DNA of 64,000 nucleotides, from assembly GCA_024398965.1 (NCBI GenBank), contig JAKSIF010000003.1, positions 1 to 64,000 of the forward strand. Direction: 5' to 3'. Below, piece by piece: positions 5,489-46,864 of the stretch. The translations under genes were made by a program, and so were the position numbers. The stretch comes from Fibrobacter sp. GTDB taxonomy: Bacteria; Fibrobacterota; Fibrobacteria; Fibrobacterales; Fibrobacteraceae. Every line of letters begins with the position of its first letter. Position 1 is the stretch's first letter. The notes under the pieces were generated by a model, which was given only the letters and a program-made list of their open reading frames with translations, searched no databases and was not told where the DNA came from.

Positions 5489-5514
5489 GTCATTCTCGCG
5501 AAGGCGAGAATCTA
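5489..5514. repeat. Palindromic element (GTCATTCTCGC...GCGAGAATCTA)
   Basis: The ATTCTCGC/GCGAGAAT arms form a perfect 8-bp stem around AAG. It starts GTCAT and ends ATCTA, as do related elements inside the FISUMP gene at 12.7-13.2 kb and at 20008. It lies 3 bp from the metG stop codon. Confidence 0.7.
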
Positions 5515-5517
5515 ACG

Positions 5518-7611
5518 TTAATGCACGCCGTTGCCTTCCGGAACGTCGCAGGTTACGGCCTTGCCGCCGATTTCCAACGCGATGGGTGCGGCACCTTCGC
5601 CGGCAGTGCAGAACACTTCGCCGTTTTTGACGGAGAGAGCGATCTTGTCGAAATCCTTCAGCTTCAGTTCGCGAGGCTCGCTGGGAGAGACGCCCTTGAA
5701 CAGTGCGCGGTCACCGGGCTTTGCTCCTTCAGGTACGGCCACCAGGCGGCACTTGTGGGTTTCCGGTTCTAGGTCGCCTGCGAAGAGCATGCCTGCGCTC
5801 ATGATGCCGCGGAGGGGTGCGGGCTTCAGGTTTGCAAACAAAAGAATCATGCGGTCCTTAAGTTCAGAAGCTTCGTAGCTAGCCTTCAGGCCGGAGCAAA
5901 CGGTGCGGAGTTCGCCTTCGCCTGCGTCCACCTTCAGAACGTAGAGGGAAGTTGCATCCGGGTGGTCTGCCACTTCCACGATCTTTGCTGCGCGAAGGTC
6001 CATGGCGGCAGGAACATCTGCTGCGGTCAGGGGCTTGTTCTGCTTGGGCTTGGCCTGCTGCTGTTGCTGCTGGGGCTTCACTTCTTCTTCGATGCGGGGG
6101 AACAGGGGCTTGCCTTCACCGAAAGCTTCGCCACCCTTCATGAGACCCCAGACCAGGTCTTCAGCGCTGGTGAACTTGGTGCCCAGCATAGTAAGGCCTT
6201 CTTCAGCCTTGGTGGGGATCACCGGCCACAGCATGCAGAGGCTGAGTCGCACGGCTTCGGCTGCCACATAGAGAACGGTTGCCAGTTCATCCTTGGCGGC
6301 CGGGTCCTTGGCCAGCTTCCAGGGAGCCTTGATTTCGAAGTAGCGGTTGATGCTACGGACCAGACTCATGATGTTTTCGATAGACTGGGAAAGACGTGCC
6401 TGGGGCAGATCCTGCTTGATGTCTTCGATAACCTTCTTGGCCAGGTTCATCACGTCGTTGGCGGCGTCATCCATAACGACAGCTGCGGGGAGCTTGCCTT
6501 CGAAGTTGGTGAGCACCAGCTTGTGGACGCGGTTCAGAACGTTACCCAGGTCGTTTGCCAAGTCGGCGTTAATGCGACGGACAAAGGAATCGTGGGTGAA
6601 GTTTGCATCCTGGCCAACCACCATTTCGCGGGCCAGGTAGTAGCGGAAGGCGTCGTCGCCGTACTTTTCCATGTAGTCCATGGGCTTTACGACGTTACCG
6701 GCGGACTTACTCATCTTTTCGCCGCCGTTCACCAGCCACCAGCCGTGGGCCAGAATATGCTTGGGCAGAGGAATGTCCAGGGCCATGAGCATGGTGGGCC
6801 AGTACACGCTATGAGTGGTGAGGATGTCCTTACCGATCAGGTGGTAGGTGGCGGGCCAAATGGGGGTGCCGTCGGCAAAAGTCTTGTGGAAGGCGGTGGA
6901 GGCGCTCACGTAGTTGAGCAAGGCGTCGAACCACACGTAGGTTACGTAGTCGCCATCGAAAGGCAGAGGAATGCCCCAGCTAAGGCGTGCCTTCGGGCGG
7001 CTGATGCAAAGGTCGTTCAGGGGCTGGCGGAGGAAGCCCAGGATTTCGTTACGACGGTAGTCGGGAACGATCCAGTCCGGGTTGTTGTTCAAGTGGTCGA
7101 TGAGCTGCTGCTGGTACTTGCTCATCTTGAAGAAGTAGTTCTTTTCCTTCAGCCATTCCACCGGGCGGTGGCTAATGGGGTCGCACTTGTTTTCGTCCAG
7201 TTCGTCTTCGCCAAAGAAACGTTCTTCGCCAACGGAATACCAGCCTTCGTATTCCTTGGAGTAGATTTCGCCCTTGTCCCACAGCTTCTGCAGGCATTCC
7301 TGCACGTAAGCCTTGTGTTCGGGATAGGTGGTGCGGATAAAGAAGTCGTTGCAGATGCCCATCTTCTTCCACAGGTCTTCGAAGTGATGGTAGTATTCAT
7401 CTACATGCTGCTGCGGGTCCACTTCGCGCTTGGCGGCGGCGCGCTGCACCTTCTGGCCGTGTTCGTCGGTACCGGTCAAAAAGAAGGTCTGGTAGCCAAG
7501 AATCTTGTGGAAGCGGGTAAGAATGTCTGCAAGGACGGTGGTGTAGGAATGACCGATATGAGGTGCGTCATTCACATAATAAATCGGGGTAGTAACGTAA
7601 AAGTTCTTCAT
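5518..7611 (-). CDS. metG: Methionyl-tRNA synthetase
   Basis: 697 residues; charges tRNA-Met in the cytoplasm. The class I signature HIGH is at residues 18-21 and KMSKS near residue 297. Domains in order: Rossmann catalytic core, anticodon-binding helices (~residues 370-520), a poly-Gln linker near 530, and a C-terminal EMAP-II/Trbp111-type tRNA-binding domain that promotes dimerisation. The zinc-knuckle region (around residue 135-160, WYSVGEERFFGEDEL) lacks the usual paired Cys ligands. The start is supported by N-terminal alignment with the family; no Shine-Dalgarno precedes it, and a TAAATT box lies 7 nt upstream, so the mRNA may be leaderless. Confidence 0.97.
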   Translation of the reverse strand: MKNFYVTTPIYYVNDAPHIGHSYTTVLADILTRFHKILGYQTFFLTGTDEHGQKVQRAAAKREVDPQQHVDEYYHHFEDLWKKMGICNDFFIRTTYPEHKAYVQECLQKLWDKGEIYSKEYEGWYSVGEERFFGEDELDENKCDPISHRPVEWLKEKNYFFKMSKYQQQLIDHLNNNPDWIVPDYRRNEILGFLRQPLNDLCISRPKARLSWGIPLPFDGDYVTYVWFDALLNYVSASTAFHKTFADGTPIWPATYHLIGKDILTTHSVYWPTMLMALDIPLPKHILAHGWWLVNGGEKMSKSAGNVVKPMDYMEKYGDDAFRYYLAREMVVGQDANFTHDSFVRRINADLANDLGNVLNRVHKLVLTNFEGKLPAAVVMDDAANDVMNLAKKVIEDIKQDLPQARLSQSIENIMSLVRSINRYFEIKAPWKLAKDPAAKDELATVLYVAAEAVRLSLCMLWPVIPTKAEEGLTMLGTKFTSAEDLVWGLMKGGEAFGEGKPLFPRIEEEVKPQQQQQQAKPKQNKPLTAADVPAAMDLRAAKIVEVADHPDATSLYVLKVDAGEGELRTVCSGLKASYEASELKDRMILLFANLKPAPLRGIMSAGMLFAGDLEPETHKCRLVAVPEGAKPGDRALFKGVSPSEPRELKLKDFDKIALSVKNGEVFCTAGEGAAPIALEIGGKAVTCDVPEGNGVH

Positions 7612-12608: not shown

Positions 12609-13895
12609 ATGAAAAAGAATTTCCTTGCTCTTGGAACTTGTGCGTTTGCGCTGGTCTTGGGCCTTGTGGCCTGCGATGACAGCACTTCTGCGAATGGTTC
12701 GTCCGGGGATGAAAATCCCGCTGAAGTGTCTTCCTCCAGTGTCATCCCGAGTTCCTCCTCCAGTGTCATCCTGAGCGATAGCGAAGGATCTAGCAGCTCT
12801 GTGGTTTCCTCTTCAGATGTCATCCCGGGCACCGACCCGGGATCTAGCTGTTCCGTAGCAAGCTCCAGCTCAGTAACTTCCTCTAGTTCCGTGGAGTCCT
12901 CTTCGTCGGTTGCTAGCTCCTCTAGCGAGAAGAGTTCCTCTTCTATTGCTAGTAGTTCCTCCGTAAAGAGCAGCAGCTCCGTTGCATCGTCAAGTTCTGC
13001 GGAATCTTCCTCCTCCAGTGTCATTCTGAGCTCATCGAGCGAAGAATCTAGCAGCTCTGTCGCTAGTTCCAGTTCGGAAGAATCTTCAAGTTCCGTAACA
13101 TCCTCTTCTTCTGTCGCAAGTAGTTCTTCTTCGAGTGTCATCCCGAGCGAAGTCGAGGGATCTAGCAGCTCCGTTGCATCTTCCAGCTCCGCGAAGTCTT
13201 CGTCGTCGGTAGCAAGTAGTTCCTCGGTAAAGAGTAGTAGCAGTGTAGTTGTTGTAAAGGGGTCCATGACCGATTCTCGCGACGGTCAAGTTTACAAGAC
13301 CGTAACTATTGGCACCCAGACATGGATGGCGGAAAACCTGAACTACGCATACACTGGCGTGAAGTACAATTACAACGGTTACACCTCCGACTCCACCAGC
13401 TGGTGCTATGAAAATGAAGCTTCCAACTGCGACAAGTATGGTCGTCTTTACACCTGGAGCGCCGTGATGGACAGTGCAGCCCAGTTCAGCGTGAACGCTG
13501 GAACCCAGTGCGGCTATGGTAAGACCTGCACCCCCAACAGCCCCCACCGCGGCATTTGCCCCGAGGGCTGGCACGTGCCCACGAACGAGGAGTACAGCAC
13601 TCTGTACACCTACATCGGTGGTTCCAGCACCGCTGGTTCGTTGTTGAAATCTACCAGCGGCTGGTACAGTGGCGGCAACGGTTCCGACAAGTATGGCGTC
13701 TCGGTGCTCCCCGCCGGTTACAGGAACTACAATGGCGGTTTCTACTATGAGAGCGACGACGCCGACTTGTGGTCTGCCTCTGAGTACAGTAGCAAAGGCG
13801 CGTGGTACCAGTACTTCCGCTACAATTACGACGACGCGCGCCAGCGCAACCACGACAAGTACAACGGTCAAAGTTTGCGTTGCCTCAAGGATTGA
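12609..13895 (+). CDS. FISUMP-domain lipoprotein with long Ser-rich linker
   Basis: 428 residues. A lipoprotein signal with lipobox LVAC puts the acylated Cys near residue 21. Residues ~30-215 are a Ser-rich linker with short Ala, Val, Lys and Glu interruptions. The C-terminal ~205 residues are a FISUMP domain (PF09603/TIGR02145): YKTVTIGTQTWMAENLNY at its start, a CPEGWHVPTNEEY core, and a closing SLRCLKD. Function of FISUMP domains is unknown; surface display is assumed. The linker contains four to five copies of a DNA palindromic element in the same frame (see repeats). A terminator follows. Confidence 0.9.
   Translation: MKKNFLALGTCAFALVLGLVACDDSTSANGSSGDENPAEVSSSSVIPSSSSSVILSDSEGSSSSVVSSSDVIPGTDPGSSCSVASSSSVTSSSSVESSSSVASSSSEKSSSSIASSSSVKSSSSVASSSSAESSSSSVILSSSSEESSSSVASSSSEESSSSVTSSSSVASSSSSSVIPSEVEGSSSSVASSSSAKSSSSVASSSSVKSSSSVVVVKGSMTDSRDGQVYKTVTIGTQTWMAENLNYAYTGVKYNYNGYTSDSTSWCYENEASNCDKYGRLYTWSAVMDSAAQFSVNAGTQCGYGKTCTPNSPHRGICPEGWHVPTNEEYSTLYTYIGGSSTAGSLLKSTSGWYSGGNGSDKYGVSVLPAGYRNYNGGFYYESDDADLWSASEYSSKGAWYQYFRYNYDDARQRNHDKYNGQSLRCLKD
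12741..13162 (+). repeat. In-frame palindromic elements inside the Ser-rich linker
   Basis: Copies at 12765-12792, 12819-12846, 13020-13050 and 13137-13162, plus a half copy at 12741-12750. Each begins GTCATYCYGRG and ends GRATCTAG, with complementary arms (for example CATCCCGGG and CCCGGGATC). All lie in the same frame and encode V-I-(L/P)-(S/G)...-(E/P)-(G/E)-S-S-S. They resemble the intergenic elements at 5489 and 20008 and the insert at 46049. Confidence 0.7.
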
Positions 13896-20007: not shown

Positions 20008-20032
20008 GTCATTCCCGGCTTGACCGGGAATC
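20008..20032. repeat. Palindromic element (GTCATTCCCGG...CCGGGAATC)
   Basis: The ATTCCCGG/CCGGGAAT arms pair perfectly around CTTGA. It starts 5 bp beyond the pfp stop codon and shares the GTCAT start and GAATC end with the element at 5489. The ATTCCC(N)GGGAAT pattern is reminiscent of neisserial dRS3 repeats; no homology is claimed. Confidence 0.65.
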
Positions 20033-20037
20033 GGGCA

Positions 20038-21732
20038 TTACTTGCTCTTCTTAGCGGACTTCTTAGCAGCAGCAACCTTCATTGCGCCGCGTTCCAGCTT
20101 GATGGTGAAGTTGGTAACGTCGCAAACTTCGCTCGGACCCCAGTACTGGATCGGACCCGGATAGGTGTAGGATTCAGTCTTTGCCCATTCTTCGCGGTTA
20201 GCAGCAAAGAACTTGAACGGAGCACCGTCGAGAACGACGAGAGCCTTCTGGATAACCGGCTTGTCTGCACCGTGACGGCGTTCCATGTTCATCATCATGG
20301 TGATAGGAATGCCACCAGCGGTCCACTTTTCGATACCCTTGGTCAGGTCGCGAACAGAGCTCATGTAGCCGTTCATCTTGTTGAAAGCGAGAACGGAAGC
20401 GGTGTAGCCCAGGCTGTAGCAGTAGTCAGCGTCGAAGTTGGACGGAGCTGCGCAACGACCTTCGTAACCGAAGAAGTGGTTGAGGGCGGAGAACTTGCCC
20501 TTGAAGTTCTTGCGGCTCTTGAGTTCGCTCTTCACCATGTCGATGATGAGCTTTTCAGTTTCGATGAGGGAAACCTGAACGTTGCCATGGCTGTCGCGGT
20601 CCAGCATGAGCTGAGCCTGAACGAATGCCGGGAGGGAAACGAGAACTTCTGCAGAAGCCTTGGAAACCCACTTGCAGAGCTTTTCAACCTTAGCAGCGGT
20701 GTCGAGGCCTTCAACTTCCTTTTCGTGGTGAGCGAGGGCTTCGGAGAGTTCGGAAATCAGAACGCCAACATCCGGGATGAATTCCAGGAGGCCTTCCGGA
20801 ATGAGAGCAACACCGAAGTTCTTGCCAGCAGCAGCACGTGCAGCAACGATGTCTGCAACATACTTGATGACCTGCTTGAGCTTCATCTTCTTGGCCTTGA
20901 CTTCTTCAGAGATCAAGCAGATGTTCGGATGGGTTTGGAGAGCAGCTTCCAATGCAATGTGAGAAGCGCTACGGCCCATGAGCTTGATGAAGTGCCAGTA
21001 CTTCTGAGCGGAGTTGGCATCGCGCATGATGTTGCCGATGAGTTCAGAGTAGGTCTTCACAGCGGTGTCGAAACCGAAGGAGGTTTCGATGTATTCGTTC
21101 TTCAAGTCGCCGTCGATGGTCTTGGGGCAGCCGCAAACAACGCAGGAAGCTCCGTTAGCCTGGAAGTATTCACCGAGAACAGCTGCGTTGGTGTTGGAGT
21201 CGTCACCGCCGATGATGACGATAGCGTCCAGCTTCTGAGCCTTGGCAACAGCCATGCACTTCTTGAACTGTTCTTCAGTTTCCAGTTTGGTACGGCCGGA
21301 CTGGATGATGTCGAAACCACCAGTGTTGCGGTAGGAGTCCATGATCTTTTCGTTGATCACGATGAACTTGCCGTTTTCGAGGCCAGACGGACCACCGAGG
21401 AAGCCCAGGAGCTTGGAGTTCTTGTTGATGGACTTGATACCGTCGAAGAGACCTGCGATAACGTTGTGGCCACCAGGTGCCTGACCGCCAGAAAGAACAA
21501 CGCCAACGTTCAAAGCCTTAGCAGCACCAGCTGCCTTGCCTGCCTTCAGCTGAATGTAGGGAGCACCGTAAGTGTTGGGGAACAGAGCCTTGATCTTCTT
21601 CTGATCAGAGACGGATTCGGTTGCCTTACCCTTGTTGAGTGCGACATTGAGAGCGCCCTTGCGGAGAGCGACGGGGAGTTTCGGCTGGTAGGCCTTGCGA
21701 GCCTTGCCGAGGACGGACAGATTGTCAGCCAT
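20038..21732 (-). CDS. pfp: Pyrophosphate-dependent 6-phosphofructokinase, long type
   Basis: 564 residues from the ATG at 21732 (AGGAAG upstream); the open frame continues further but without a start site and into the promoter. It interconverts fructose 6-phosphate and the 1,6-bisphosphate with PPi. Signatures: GVVLSGGQAPGG near residue 78, IIGGDDSNTN near 173 (the second Asp is the PPi-type residue), the catalytic PKTIDGD, and MGRSASH. Length matches the plant-like/clade-II enzymes. The C-terminus has a Lys/Ala-rich tail (KVAAAKKSAKKSK). Codon bias suggests high expression. PPi-linked glycolysis and the GH94 phosphorylase both save ATP. TATATT on the minus strand at 21798-21793 is the likely -10. 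Confidence 0.93.
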   Translation of the reverse strand: MADNLSVLGKARKAYQPKLPVALRKGALNVALNKGKATESVSDQKKIKALFPNTYGAPYIQLKAGKAAGAAKALNVGVVLSGGQAPGGHNVIAGLFDGIKSINKNSKLLGFLGGPSGLENGKFIVINEKIMDSYRNTGGFDIIQSGRTKLETEEQFKKCMAVAKAQKLDAIVIIGGDDSNTNAAVLGEYFQANGASCVVCGCPKTIDGDLKNEYIETSFGFDTAVKTYSELIGNIMRDANSAQKYWHFIKLMGRSASHIALEAALQTHPNICLISEEVKAKKMKLKQVIKYVADIVAARAAAGKNFGVALIPEGLLEFIPDVGVLISELSEALAHHEKEVEGLDTAAKVEKLCKWVSKASAEVLVSLPAFVQAQLMLDRDSHGNVQVSLIETEKLIIDMVKSELKSRKNFKGKFSALNHFFGYEGRCAAPSNFDADYCYSLGYTASVLAFNKMNGYMSSVRDLTKGIEKWTAGGIPITMMMNMERRHGADKPVIQKALVVLDGAPFKFFAANREEWAKTESYTYPGPIQYWGPSEVCDVTNFTIKLERGAMKVAAAKKSAKKSK

Positions 21733-21911
21733 TGTTTCTTCCTTTGGTTGAGAGTCCACAGGATGTGGACGGGTTAAAAAATCTACGAAGTAAATATAAC
21801 AAAATATTTCATTTATGAAATTCATGGCGATGAGGACGAATTCCCGAAATAAGTCGATTACAATTCGCCTTGTTATTTTTACATTACGGTGTGGTTGATT
21901 AGGAGAAATAT

Positions 21912-22988
21912 ATGCGTAAAGTAGTTCTTGCCCTCGGGGCTGTGGTTGCTGGTGGAATCCTTGGTGCATGTGGCGACAATGGCTCAAGCGTCAATGAAAA
22001 TTCAAAGACTGAATCTAGGGTAGATACCCTCTATGTCAGCAACTTGGATACCATTATCGCCATCGATACCATTCATTCCGTTGATACGGTTGTTCTAAAT
22101 AACGTGGACACCCTTGTTTTGGACCGCGTCGACACCCTGGTTCAGGTGGACACCACTATTCTTAACAATGTGGATACCCTGATTCAAAAGGACACGGTCT
22201 ATTCTGTGGATACTCTGGTCTTGAACAAAGTAGATACCTTGCTCATTACGGACACTCTTGTTGTGGAGGAACCCGCAGAACCTCCCTTCGGCTATGTTAC
22301 TGATCCACGTGATAAGAAAACTTACAGGACTGTAAAAATCGGTTCCCAGGAATGGATGGCCGAAAATTTGAACTACCGCTATATGGGTTCTACGGATACC
22401 GACGATTCCTTAAGCTTCTGTCTCTTTGCAGATGAAGAAAATTGCAATCTTTTTGGACGTCTGTATTTCTGGTCCGCCGCCATGGACTCTGCGGGCTCAT
22501 TCAGCCAGGATGCTGTGGGCTGCGGCAAGGGCGTGACTTGCGATCACAAAGATACAGTGCAGGGTATTTGCATGGAAGGCTGGCACCTGCCTAGTGTCGA
22601 TGAATGGCAACAGCTCATTGATTATGCTGGTGGCGAGAAGAAGGCTTATAGTCTTTTGGAATCCCAAGACGACTGGGGCAAACGCATCGAATTTTTCAGG
22701 GACGAAGAAACTCAATCCGCTACACAAAATGAATTTATCTATAGAGGGGTGGATGCTTATGGCTTCAATGTGAAACCTTACGTTAGCGGTTCCGATCCTG
22801 GTCCAAGCTATATTGAAATTTTCGAATCAGCCTTTTATTGTTCCTCTACGGAAGACGATGAAAATTACATGATGGGCGTGGAATTCGGTAGAGCCAGGCT
22901 TTCCGTCAACCCTTCCATGAAAAACAAGTTCCATATACCTATGATGGAGGCTGATCAGGGCTTTTCTGTTCGTTGCGTAAAGAATTGA
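21912..22988 (+). CDS. FISUMP-domain lipoprotein with VDTL-repeat linker
   Basis: 358 residues. A lipoprotein signal with lipobox LGAC puts the Cys near residue 20. Instead of a Ser-rich linker, residues ~37-118 hold about ten irregular repeats built on VDTLVL(N/D), spaced roughly eight residues. A FISUMP domain follows from ~residue 128: YRTVKIGSQEWMAENLNY, a C-rich middle (FCLFADEENC), CMEGWHLPSVDEW, and a final RCVKN. AGGAG precedes the ATG. Role unknown; the repeats may form a stiff stalk off the outer membrane. Confidence 0.88.
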   Translation: MRKVVLALGAVVAGGILGACGDNGSSVNENSKTESRVDTLYVSNLDTIIAIDTIHSVDTVVLNNVDTLVLDRVDTLVQVDTTILNNVDTLIQKDTVYSVDTLVLNKVDTLLITDTLVVEEPAEPPFGYVTDPRDKKTYRTVKIGSQEWMAENLNYRYMGSTDTDDSLSFCLFADEENCNLFGRLYFWSAAMDSAGSFSQDAVGCGKGVTCDHKDTVQGICMEGWHLPSVDEWQQLIDYAGGEKKAYSLLESQDDWGKRIEFFRDEETQSATQNEFIYRGVDAYGFNVKPYVSGSDPGPSYIEIFESAFYCSSTEDDENYMMGVEFGRARLSVNPSMKNKFHIPMMEADQGFSVRCVKN

Positions 22989-45775: not shown

Positions 45776-46864
45776 ATGGATGATATGAACATCGCTCCAG
45801 TCCTATCGGTGAGAAATCTTTCTGTTGCCTTTGGTTTTTCCAAGGGCAAGAAAGGTACTTTCATCTGTAAGGAAGGAAAGCCTTTGCAGGTGACGGACAA
45901 GGTCAGCTTTGATATCCGCCCCGGTGAATTCTTTGCGCTGGTGGGGGAGTCTGGCTGTGGCAAGAGTGTTACCGCCATGAGCATCCTGAGATTGCTTCCG
46001 CAGCCCAGCGCCCAGATTGTTAGCGGCGAAGTTCTGTTTAACCGTTCCGTCATTCTGAGCGACTCCTCCTCTGAGGAAGAATCCAGTGCAGTAGACTTGG
46101 TTAAACTGCCTATTGCTGAATTGCAGAAATATCGCGGTTCCAAGATTGCCTGTATTTTCCAGGAACCCATGCAGGCTCTCAATCCGGTACTGACCATCAA
46201 GAAGCAGCTTCTTGAAGTTTTGAGGAGTGAAAAGTCCAAGAAGGAAGAAAGCCTTGAGGTCATCCGTCAGCAGCTAGCTGCAGCAGGATTTTCAGACCCC
46301 AATCGAGTGCTTGATTCCTATCCCCATGAGCTTTCCGGTGGCATGCTCCAGCGCGTATGTATTGTGATGGCGCTTCTTGCTAAGCCCAACCTGATTATCG
46401 CTGATGAACCTACCACCGCTTTGGATGTGACAGTACAGGCTCAGGTTCTTGCTGTCCTGAAGGAAATGGCTTCCAAGTCCGGTACTGCGGTTCTTCTCAT
46501 TACGCACAACATGGGCATTGTGTCCCAGTATGCGGACCGCGTGGCGGTCATGTATGCGGGGCGTATCGTGGAGACGGGCCCTGTGGACCAGGTCATCAAC
46601 GAACCTCTTCATCCCTATACCCAGGGGCTGTTGGCTGCCATTCCTGAAAGCCACAGCCAGATGAAGAACCTAAGATCCATTCCCGGTTCTGTTCCCCACC
46701 CGAGGGATTTTGTCGCCGGTTGCCGATTTGCAGACCGCTGTGAAGTTTGTTCCTGTGGAAGCGAAGAACTCCAGGCTGGCTGCCGCTCGGCGCAAAGACC
46801 GCCTTGCATTGGAAACGTGCAAGACGCTTTCGGCCATATTGCCTTCTGTTTCCGCAAACTTTAA
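45776..46864 (+). CDS. Oligopeptide ABC transporter ATPase (OppD/YejF-N type) with palindrome-like insert
   Basis: 362 residues, one nucleotide-binding domain. YejF proteins usually carry two, so this is OppD-sized. Walker A GESGCGKS near residue 59, Q-loop IFQEPMQ near 136, signature LSGGMLQR near 190, Walker B LIIADEPTTALD, and H-loop THN. The C-terminal oligo_HPY region carries a Cys cluster (GCRFADRCEVCSCG). Between GEVLFN and VKLP, about 15 extra residues (RSVILSDSSSEEESSAV) break the usual family spacing; their DNA matches the palindromic element family. Probably powers the upstream permease. Confidence 0.88.
   Translation: MDDMNIAPVLSVRNLSVAFGFSKGKKGTFICKEGKPLQVTDKVSFDIRPGEFFALVGESGCGKSVTAMSILRLLPQPSAQIVSGEVLFNRSVILSDSSSEEESSAVDLVKLPIAELQKYRGSKIACIFQEPMQALNPVLTIKKQLLEVLRSEKSKKEESLEVIRQQLAAAGFSDPNRVLDSYPHELSGGMLQRVCIVMALLAKPNLIIADEPTTALDVTVQAQVLAVLKEMASKSGTAVLLITHNMGIVSQYADRVAVMYAGRIVETGPVDQVINEPLHPYTQGLLAAIPESHSQMKNLRSIPGSVPHPRDFVAGCRFADRCEVCSCGSEELQAGCRSAQRPPCIGNVQDAFGHIAFCFRKL
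46049..46085 (+). repeat. Palindromic-element-like insert inside the ABC ATPase gene
   Basis: Begins GTCATTCTGAGCGA and ends GAGGAAGAATCC; the ATTCT and AGAAT ends are complementary and an inner TCCTCTGAGGA is palindromic. It starts and ends like the copy at 13020-13050 and encodes the same V-I-L-S...E-E-(S) pattern in the same frame. Confidence 0.6.

Follow-up and report, generated by a model that had tools for sequence, protein, structure and literature searches.

The CGTC-tagged REPs are a superfamily of short palindromic repeats (Di Nocera, De Gregorio and Rocco 2013, PMC3733652) that carry an unpaired [C/T]GTC tag, a stem that opens with AT and a short CCA-like tail. Head-to-head dimers predominate among them, their number differs among related genomes, and copies are found both between and within genes, including intragenic REPs in uvrA and uvrB of other bacteria, without any dedicated transposase. 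The Rickettsia palindromic elements RPE-4 and RPE-6 have been placed in the same superfamily (PMC3733652), while the GTAG REPs, also short hairpins that form dimers and abound between genes, are moved by RAYT transposases. How do the CGTC-tagged palindromes move, and are they still moving? Both questions have been open since these palindromes were described, and it has been suggested that they may be on the way to extinction (PMC3733652). Fibrobacter is absent from the main text of that paper, palindromes are not mentioned in the main text of the F. succinogenes S85 genome paper, and no paper naming both Fibrobacter and FISUMP was found among the open-access papers searched.

The window analysed here, a 64-kb stretch of DNA from Fibrobacter sp., contains six matches to GTCATYCYGRG, against 0.27 expected from shuffles, and five of the six lie in the Ser-rich linker (approximately residues 41-218) of a FISUMP-domain lipoprotein (Table 1). 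The first-pass annotation of this DNA had described four full copies and one half copy of a palindromic element in that linker, all read in one frame; the five sites were found where it had placed them, and each starts at a multiple of three from the ATG at 12609, i.e., in frame 0. The four full copies span 12765-12790, 12819-12844, 13020-13048 and 13137-13162, and three more nucleotides are included at the 3' end of each in Table 1. The sixth match, missing from that annotation, is an in-frame element in an ABC ATPase gene. Related stand-alone elements had also been proposed at 5489 and 20008, and this could be upheld in part: both are real, with perfect 8-bp stems and the same tagged design, although their stem types differ from those of the linker copies. 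Each lies approximately 10 bp or less from the 3' end of a minus-strand open reading frame, and the 5489 type has more copies elsewhere across the genus. At gathering thresholds, the described RNA families yielded nothing in the window beyond one tRNA.

Table 1. Host gene and palindromic elements, in window coordinates except for the last row
Feature	Position	Strand	Sequence	Read as	Remarks
FISUMP-domain lipoprotein gene, 428 aa	12609..13895	+			TIGR02145, E 1.8e-57; PF09603
Half copy, 5' tag and arm only	12741..12751	+	GTCATCCCGAG		exactly 24 nt 5' of the next full copy
Full element 1	12765..12793	+	GTCATCCTGAGCGATAGCGAAGGATCTAG	VILSDSEGSS	
Full element 2	12819..12847	+	GTCATCCCGGGCACCGACCCGGGATCTAG	VIPGTDPGSS	perfect 8-bp stem
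Full element 3	13020..13051	+	GTCATTCTGAGCTCATCGAGCGAAGAATCTAG	VILSSSSEESS	outer stem pair T-A, C-G in the others
Full element 4	13137..13165	+	GTCATCCCGAGCGAAGTCGAGGGATCTAG	VIPSEVEGSS	
Stand-alone element	5489..5515	+	GTCATTCTCGCGAAGGCGAGAATCTAA		8-bp stem, 4-nt loop; just 3' of minus-strand ORF 5518-7611
Stand-alone element	20008..20035	+	GTCATTCCCGGCTTGACCGGGAATC		8-bp stem, 5-nt loop; just 3' of minus-strand ORF 20038-21987
In-frame element	46049..46083	+	GTCATTCTGAGCGACTCCTCCTCTGAGGAAGAATC	VILSDSSSEEES	in OppD/DppD-type ABC ATPase gene 45776-46864
UvrA-like element locus L012	G000:C7, near 89033-89068				

The elements belong to a repeat family that extends over the whole genus. When the pattern GTCATYCYGAG-N4-24-GATC was searched on both strands of the window's own genome, 41 copies were obtained, against none with the reversed pattern used as a control, and the search across Fibrobacter genomes that the first-pass annotation had recommended was positive in all 37 genomes of the genus (the own genome and 36 others), with 1 to 79 copies each; the same search returned almost no copies from the remaining order, class and phylum. 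Most copies outside linkers appear intergenic, a status judged from open reading frames and not from curated annotation, so that enrichment is not confined to Ser-rich coding DNA. Which stem variant has expanded differs from one sibling species to another (CCCGGG in G023, TTCCCGG in G010 and CCCCGG in G035), and the expanded copies appear to be mostly intergenic. In G000 most copies are single, and L014/L015 form a dimer with a shared CTAG. Outside the phylum, the matches listed for one exact 25-bp version of the palindrome include named genomes from many other phyla, such as Acidobacteria, Bacteroidota, Chloroflexi, Nitrospirae, Omnitrophota, Planctomycetes and Verrucomicrobia, as well as Lachnospiraceae. 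Among the open-access papers searched, this exact 25-mer led to none, and shorter motifs led only to papers of unrelated title and abstract. The copies in other phyla (loci L217-L296) are sometimes arranged as inverted pairs, approximately 30-80 bp apart.

Regarding the structure of the element, a C or T precedes GTC in 97 of the 101 copies examined (all 30 in linkers and 67 of the 71 others). Of the same 101, at least 55 have a CTA tail after the stem and at least 18 a CCA tail, CCAGT being typical of G004 and G013. Among 118 distinct elements, pairing at stem positions 5, 7, 8, 9 and 10 reaches a frequency that none of 2000 shuffles attained (position 7 in 97% vs 78% when shuffled, position 10 in 82% vs 53%), and positions 8 and 9 change jointly, between tandem G.A/A.G and either C-G/G-C or G-C/G-C. 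The first two stem pairs are A-T and T-A in all copies, the GTCAT and ATC ends having been built into the search pattern. The uninterrupted stem of 8-9 bp and the loop of 4-5 nt that characterize the CGTC-tagged REP superfamily describe both stand-alone elements of the window, and element 2 has an 8-bp stem with a 6-nt loop. The commonest type, GAG/CGA, has a stem broken by tandem G.A and falls outside this description, and it is therefore treated as a variant, and not as a proven member, of the CGTC-tagged REP superfamily.

Approximately 15 of the 47 copies catalogued in the own genome lie within Ser-rich stretches of several different genes, all of them in frame 0. A length that preserves the frame was found in 29 of 30 linker copies vs 11 of 71 others (Fisher 3e-15, a value to be read with the non-independence of paralogous linker copies and the assignment of a few copies to the linker class by hand); all but one of the 30 linker copies are 26, 29 or 38 nt long, and the copies outside linkers are mostly 25, 31 or 36 nt. 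The linkers of relatives contain many other stem types, including SSSAPTEDPSDS read in frame +1 and SEIPGQAGNDIESS in reverse orientation, other frames or the reverse strand being used when open, and some linker copies match the intergenic variant of their own species. Such varied stem types, frames and orientations, together with these own-species matches, argue for repeated insertion with selection of the frame, and not for one convergent sequence.

In-frame copies in functional-looking protein genes are not limited to FISUMP linkers, since they also occupy loops that are not Ser-rich, in an OppD/DppD-type ATPase, a UvrA-like protein, LpxD and FeoB. In the three of these that were compared (OppD-type, UvrA-like and LpxD), relatives have no element, or different elements, at that place. 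The OppD-type loop, which encodes VILSDSSSEEES in the own genome, consists in G035 of an array with a 24-nt period ending in a full element, holds another element in G020, and is short and element-free in most other genomes; a second OppD-type loop contains element-like sequences in several genomes. Similarly, the linker joining both ATPase halves of the UvrA-like protein has elements in G000, G010 and G035, different element-like sequences in G027, G002 and G015, and no element in G024. Presence or absence of single elements between relatives, a comparison previously proposed for orthologous linkers, is seen both in linkers and in core-protein loops. The copies in LpxD (N-terminal region, L018) and FeoB (C-terminal region, L047) form element-encoded segments in otherwise conserved proteins, and the FeoB stretch comprises several tandem element-like segments.

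The first-pass annotation had interpreted the locus as part of a mobile or recombining palindrome family tolerated as protein, and the genome-wide family, the in-frame copies and their presence or absence between species support that proposal. It is quite probable that CGTC/TGTC-tagged REP-type repeats proliferated in Fibrobacter, that some were inserted in genes, and that these were then multiplied and shuffled inside linkers. The short repeats would have spread through the genomes mostly between genes, and those inserted in a gene would survive only if their length allowed read-through, their frame was open and their site was a disordered linker or a surface loop. Ser-rich linkers would accept many copies, since the common variants, when read in frame 0, encode small polar residues (V-I-L/P-S/G-x-x-E-G-S-S). 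Within linkers, 24-nt tandem slippage and exchange between paralogous linkers would account for multiplication and shuffling; the coding copies themselves probably arose by insertion and were probably amplified by these two processes.

Traces compatible with both amplifying processes can be recognized. A second 5' arm is found upstream of 13 of 30 linker copies and 28 of 70 others, against a shuffled mean of approximately 1 (examples are L010, L012, L055, L095 and L105), at a distance of 24 nt in 12 linker cases, one of them the half copy of the window, and in 10 other cases, and of 21-40 nt in the rest. In some intergenic half copies the flank has been duplicated together with the arm, which suggests slippage at the hairpin. 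As for exchange, positions 12866-13053 of the window and G010:C24:2169-2356 share 188 bp that are 99.5% identical, while the adjoining gene parts are only approximately 77-80% identical. Besides, no intergenic sibling of element 2 was found in the own genome, which fits exchange better than local insertion; its siblings are in linkers of G023, G024 and G063 and, apparently between genes, in G023 and G024. Both the 188-bp stretch and element 2 indicate that exchange between linkers also contributes. These observations, as well as the almost invariable 24-nt distance of the linker half copies, also speak for a history in which insertion into a Ser linker took place once or a few times in an ancestor, and all later spread was due to slippage, unequal recombination and gene conversion among paralogous linkers, with no continuing insertion into them. 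Such a history is conceivable but doubtful, given that linkers hold unrelated stem types, frames and orientations, some of which match the intergenic variant of the species, and that non-Ser loops of single proteins have received insertions too.

Could the palindromes instead be kept for a function in linkers or transcripts, for instance as translation-pausing RNA hairpins or as sites of recombination through which surface proteins diversify? The coding copies retain their arms and the covariation, and linkers differ between species while the downstream flank is common, as would be anticipated from a function; nonetheless, this explanation is improbable in view of the lineage-specific copy content, the copies at loops of unrelated proteins and the weak predicted folding of three of the four window copies (z of -0.13, -1.19 and -1.20, in a test that is insensitive for short interrupted stems). 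Convergence, i.e., chance mimicry of the palindrome by runs of Ser/Glu codons whose residues suit the composition of the linker, is rejected as hardly credible because arm pairing is far above that of codon shuffles (in the comparison that the first-pass annotation had named as decisive, ten distinct linker elements form 69 arm pairs vs a mean of 37-41 in synonymous codon shuffles and a maximum of 51-55 in 5000) and stem positions covary, and it is further excluded by the 41 copies vs 0 in the control and by the occurrence of the very same sequences outside coding DNA and in other reading frames.

If insertion is the origin of the coding copies, which enzyme would carry it out? PF01797 is present in six of 31 genomes and absent from the high-copy genomes G006 and G018, and the four Y1 transposase loci inspected are of the ordinary IS200 type, with no elements flanking them. 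RAYT mobilisation via PF01797 is consequently unsupported, and no mobilising gene was found among the Y1 transposases, the class tested. Among orthologous intergenic sites compared with G024 (in part, approximately 2 Mb), no clean insertion with a target-site duplication was isolated; one neat presence/absence site was found, L010 vs G024, and the difference could be a deletion leaving GACATCC. Tentatively, a still-active family without a transposase, its 25-bp core identical across many phyla, might continue to insert into Fibrobacter genes and so keep providing them with new protein segments, with a widespread host enzyme recognizing the hairpin and Ser linkers being partly built of repeats.

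These repeats illustrate how new protein segments have come, time and again, from repetitive DNA, above all in the Ser-rich linkers of surface proteins, and Fibrobacter shows repetitive DNA turning into protein linker. The genus provides material for asking by what means CGTC-tagged palindromes move, and if they do so to this day: sibling species that differ in their expanded stem variants although a reference gene region is approximately 91-95% identical, sites occupied by an element in one species but vacant in another, and coding copies from which the insertions permitted by selection can be read.

Compared with the known systems, the Fibrobacter elements resemble the CGTC-tagged REP superfamily in their [C/T]GTC tag and C[T/C]A tail, their inter- and intragenic location and a copy number that differs among relatives, and they likewise have no dedicated transposase as far as the Y1 class is concerned; the AT opening of the stem agrees as well, but was part of the search pattern. 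They depart from it in the tandem G.A mismatch of the commonest type, the variable inner hairpins, the often CTA tail, the frequent half copies 24 nt upstream and the concentration of coding copies in Ser-rich linkers. Short hairpins, dimers and abundance between genes also recall the GTAG REPs, but the tag is YGTC and not GTAG, and no Y1 transposase among those inspected is flanked by elements. The likeness to Rickettsia palindromic elements drawn in the first-pass annotation was apt, judging by the published descriptions: RPE-4 and RPE-6 are in-frame palindromes in functional proteins and belong to the superfamily with the same tag and tail (PMC3733652), although their hosts are intracellular, whereas the Fibrobacter elements are found in gut bacteria and favour Ser linkers. 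In-frame REPs are already known elsewhere; what appears to be new is the phylum in which they are found here and the degree to which they saturate Ser linkers.
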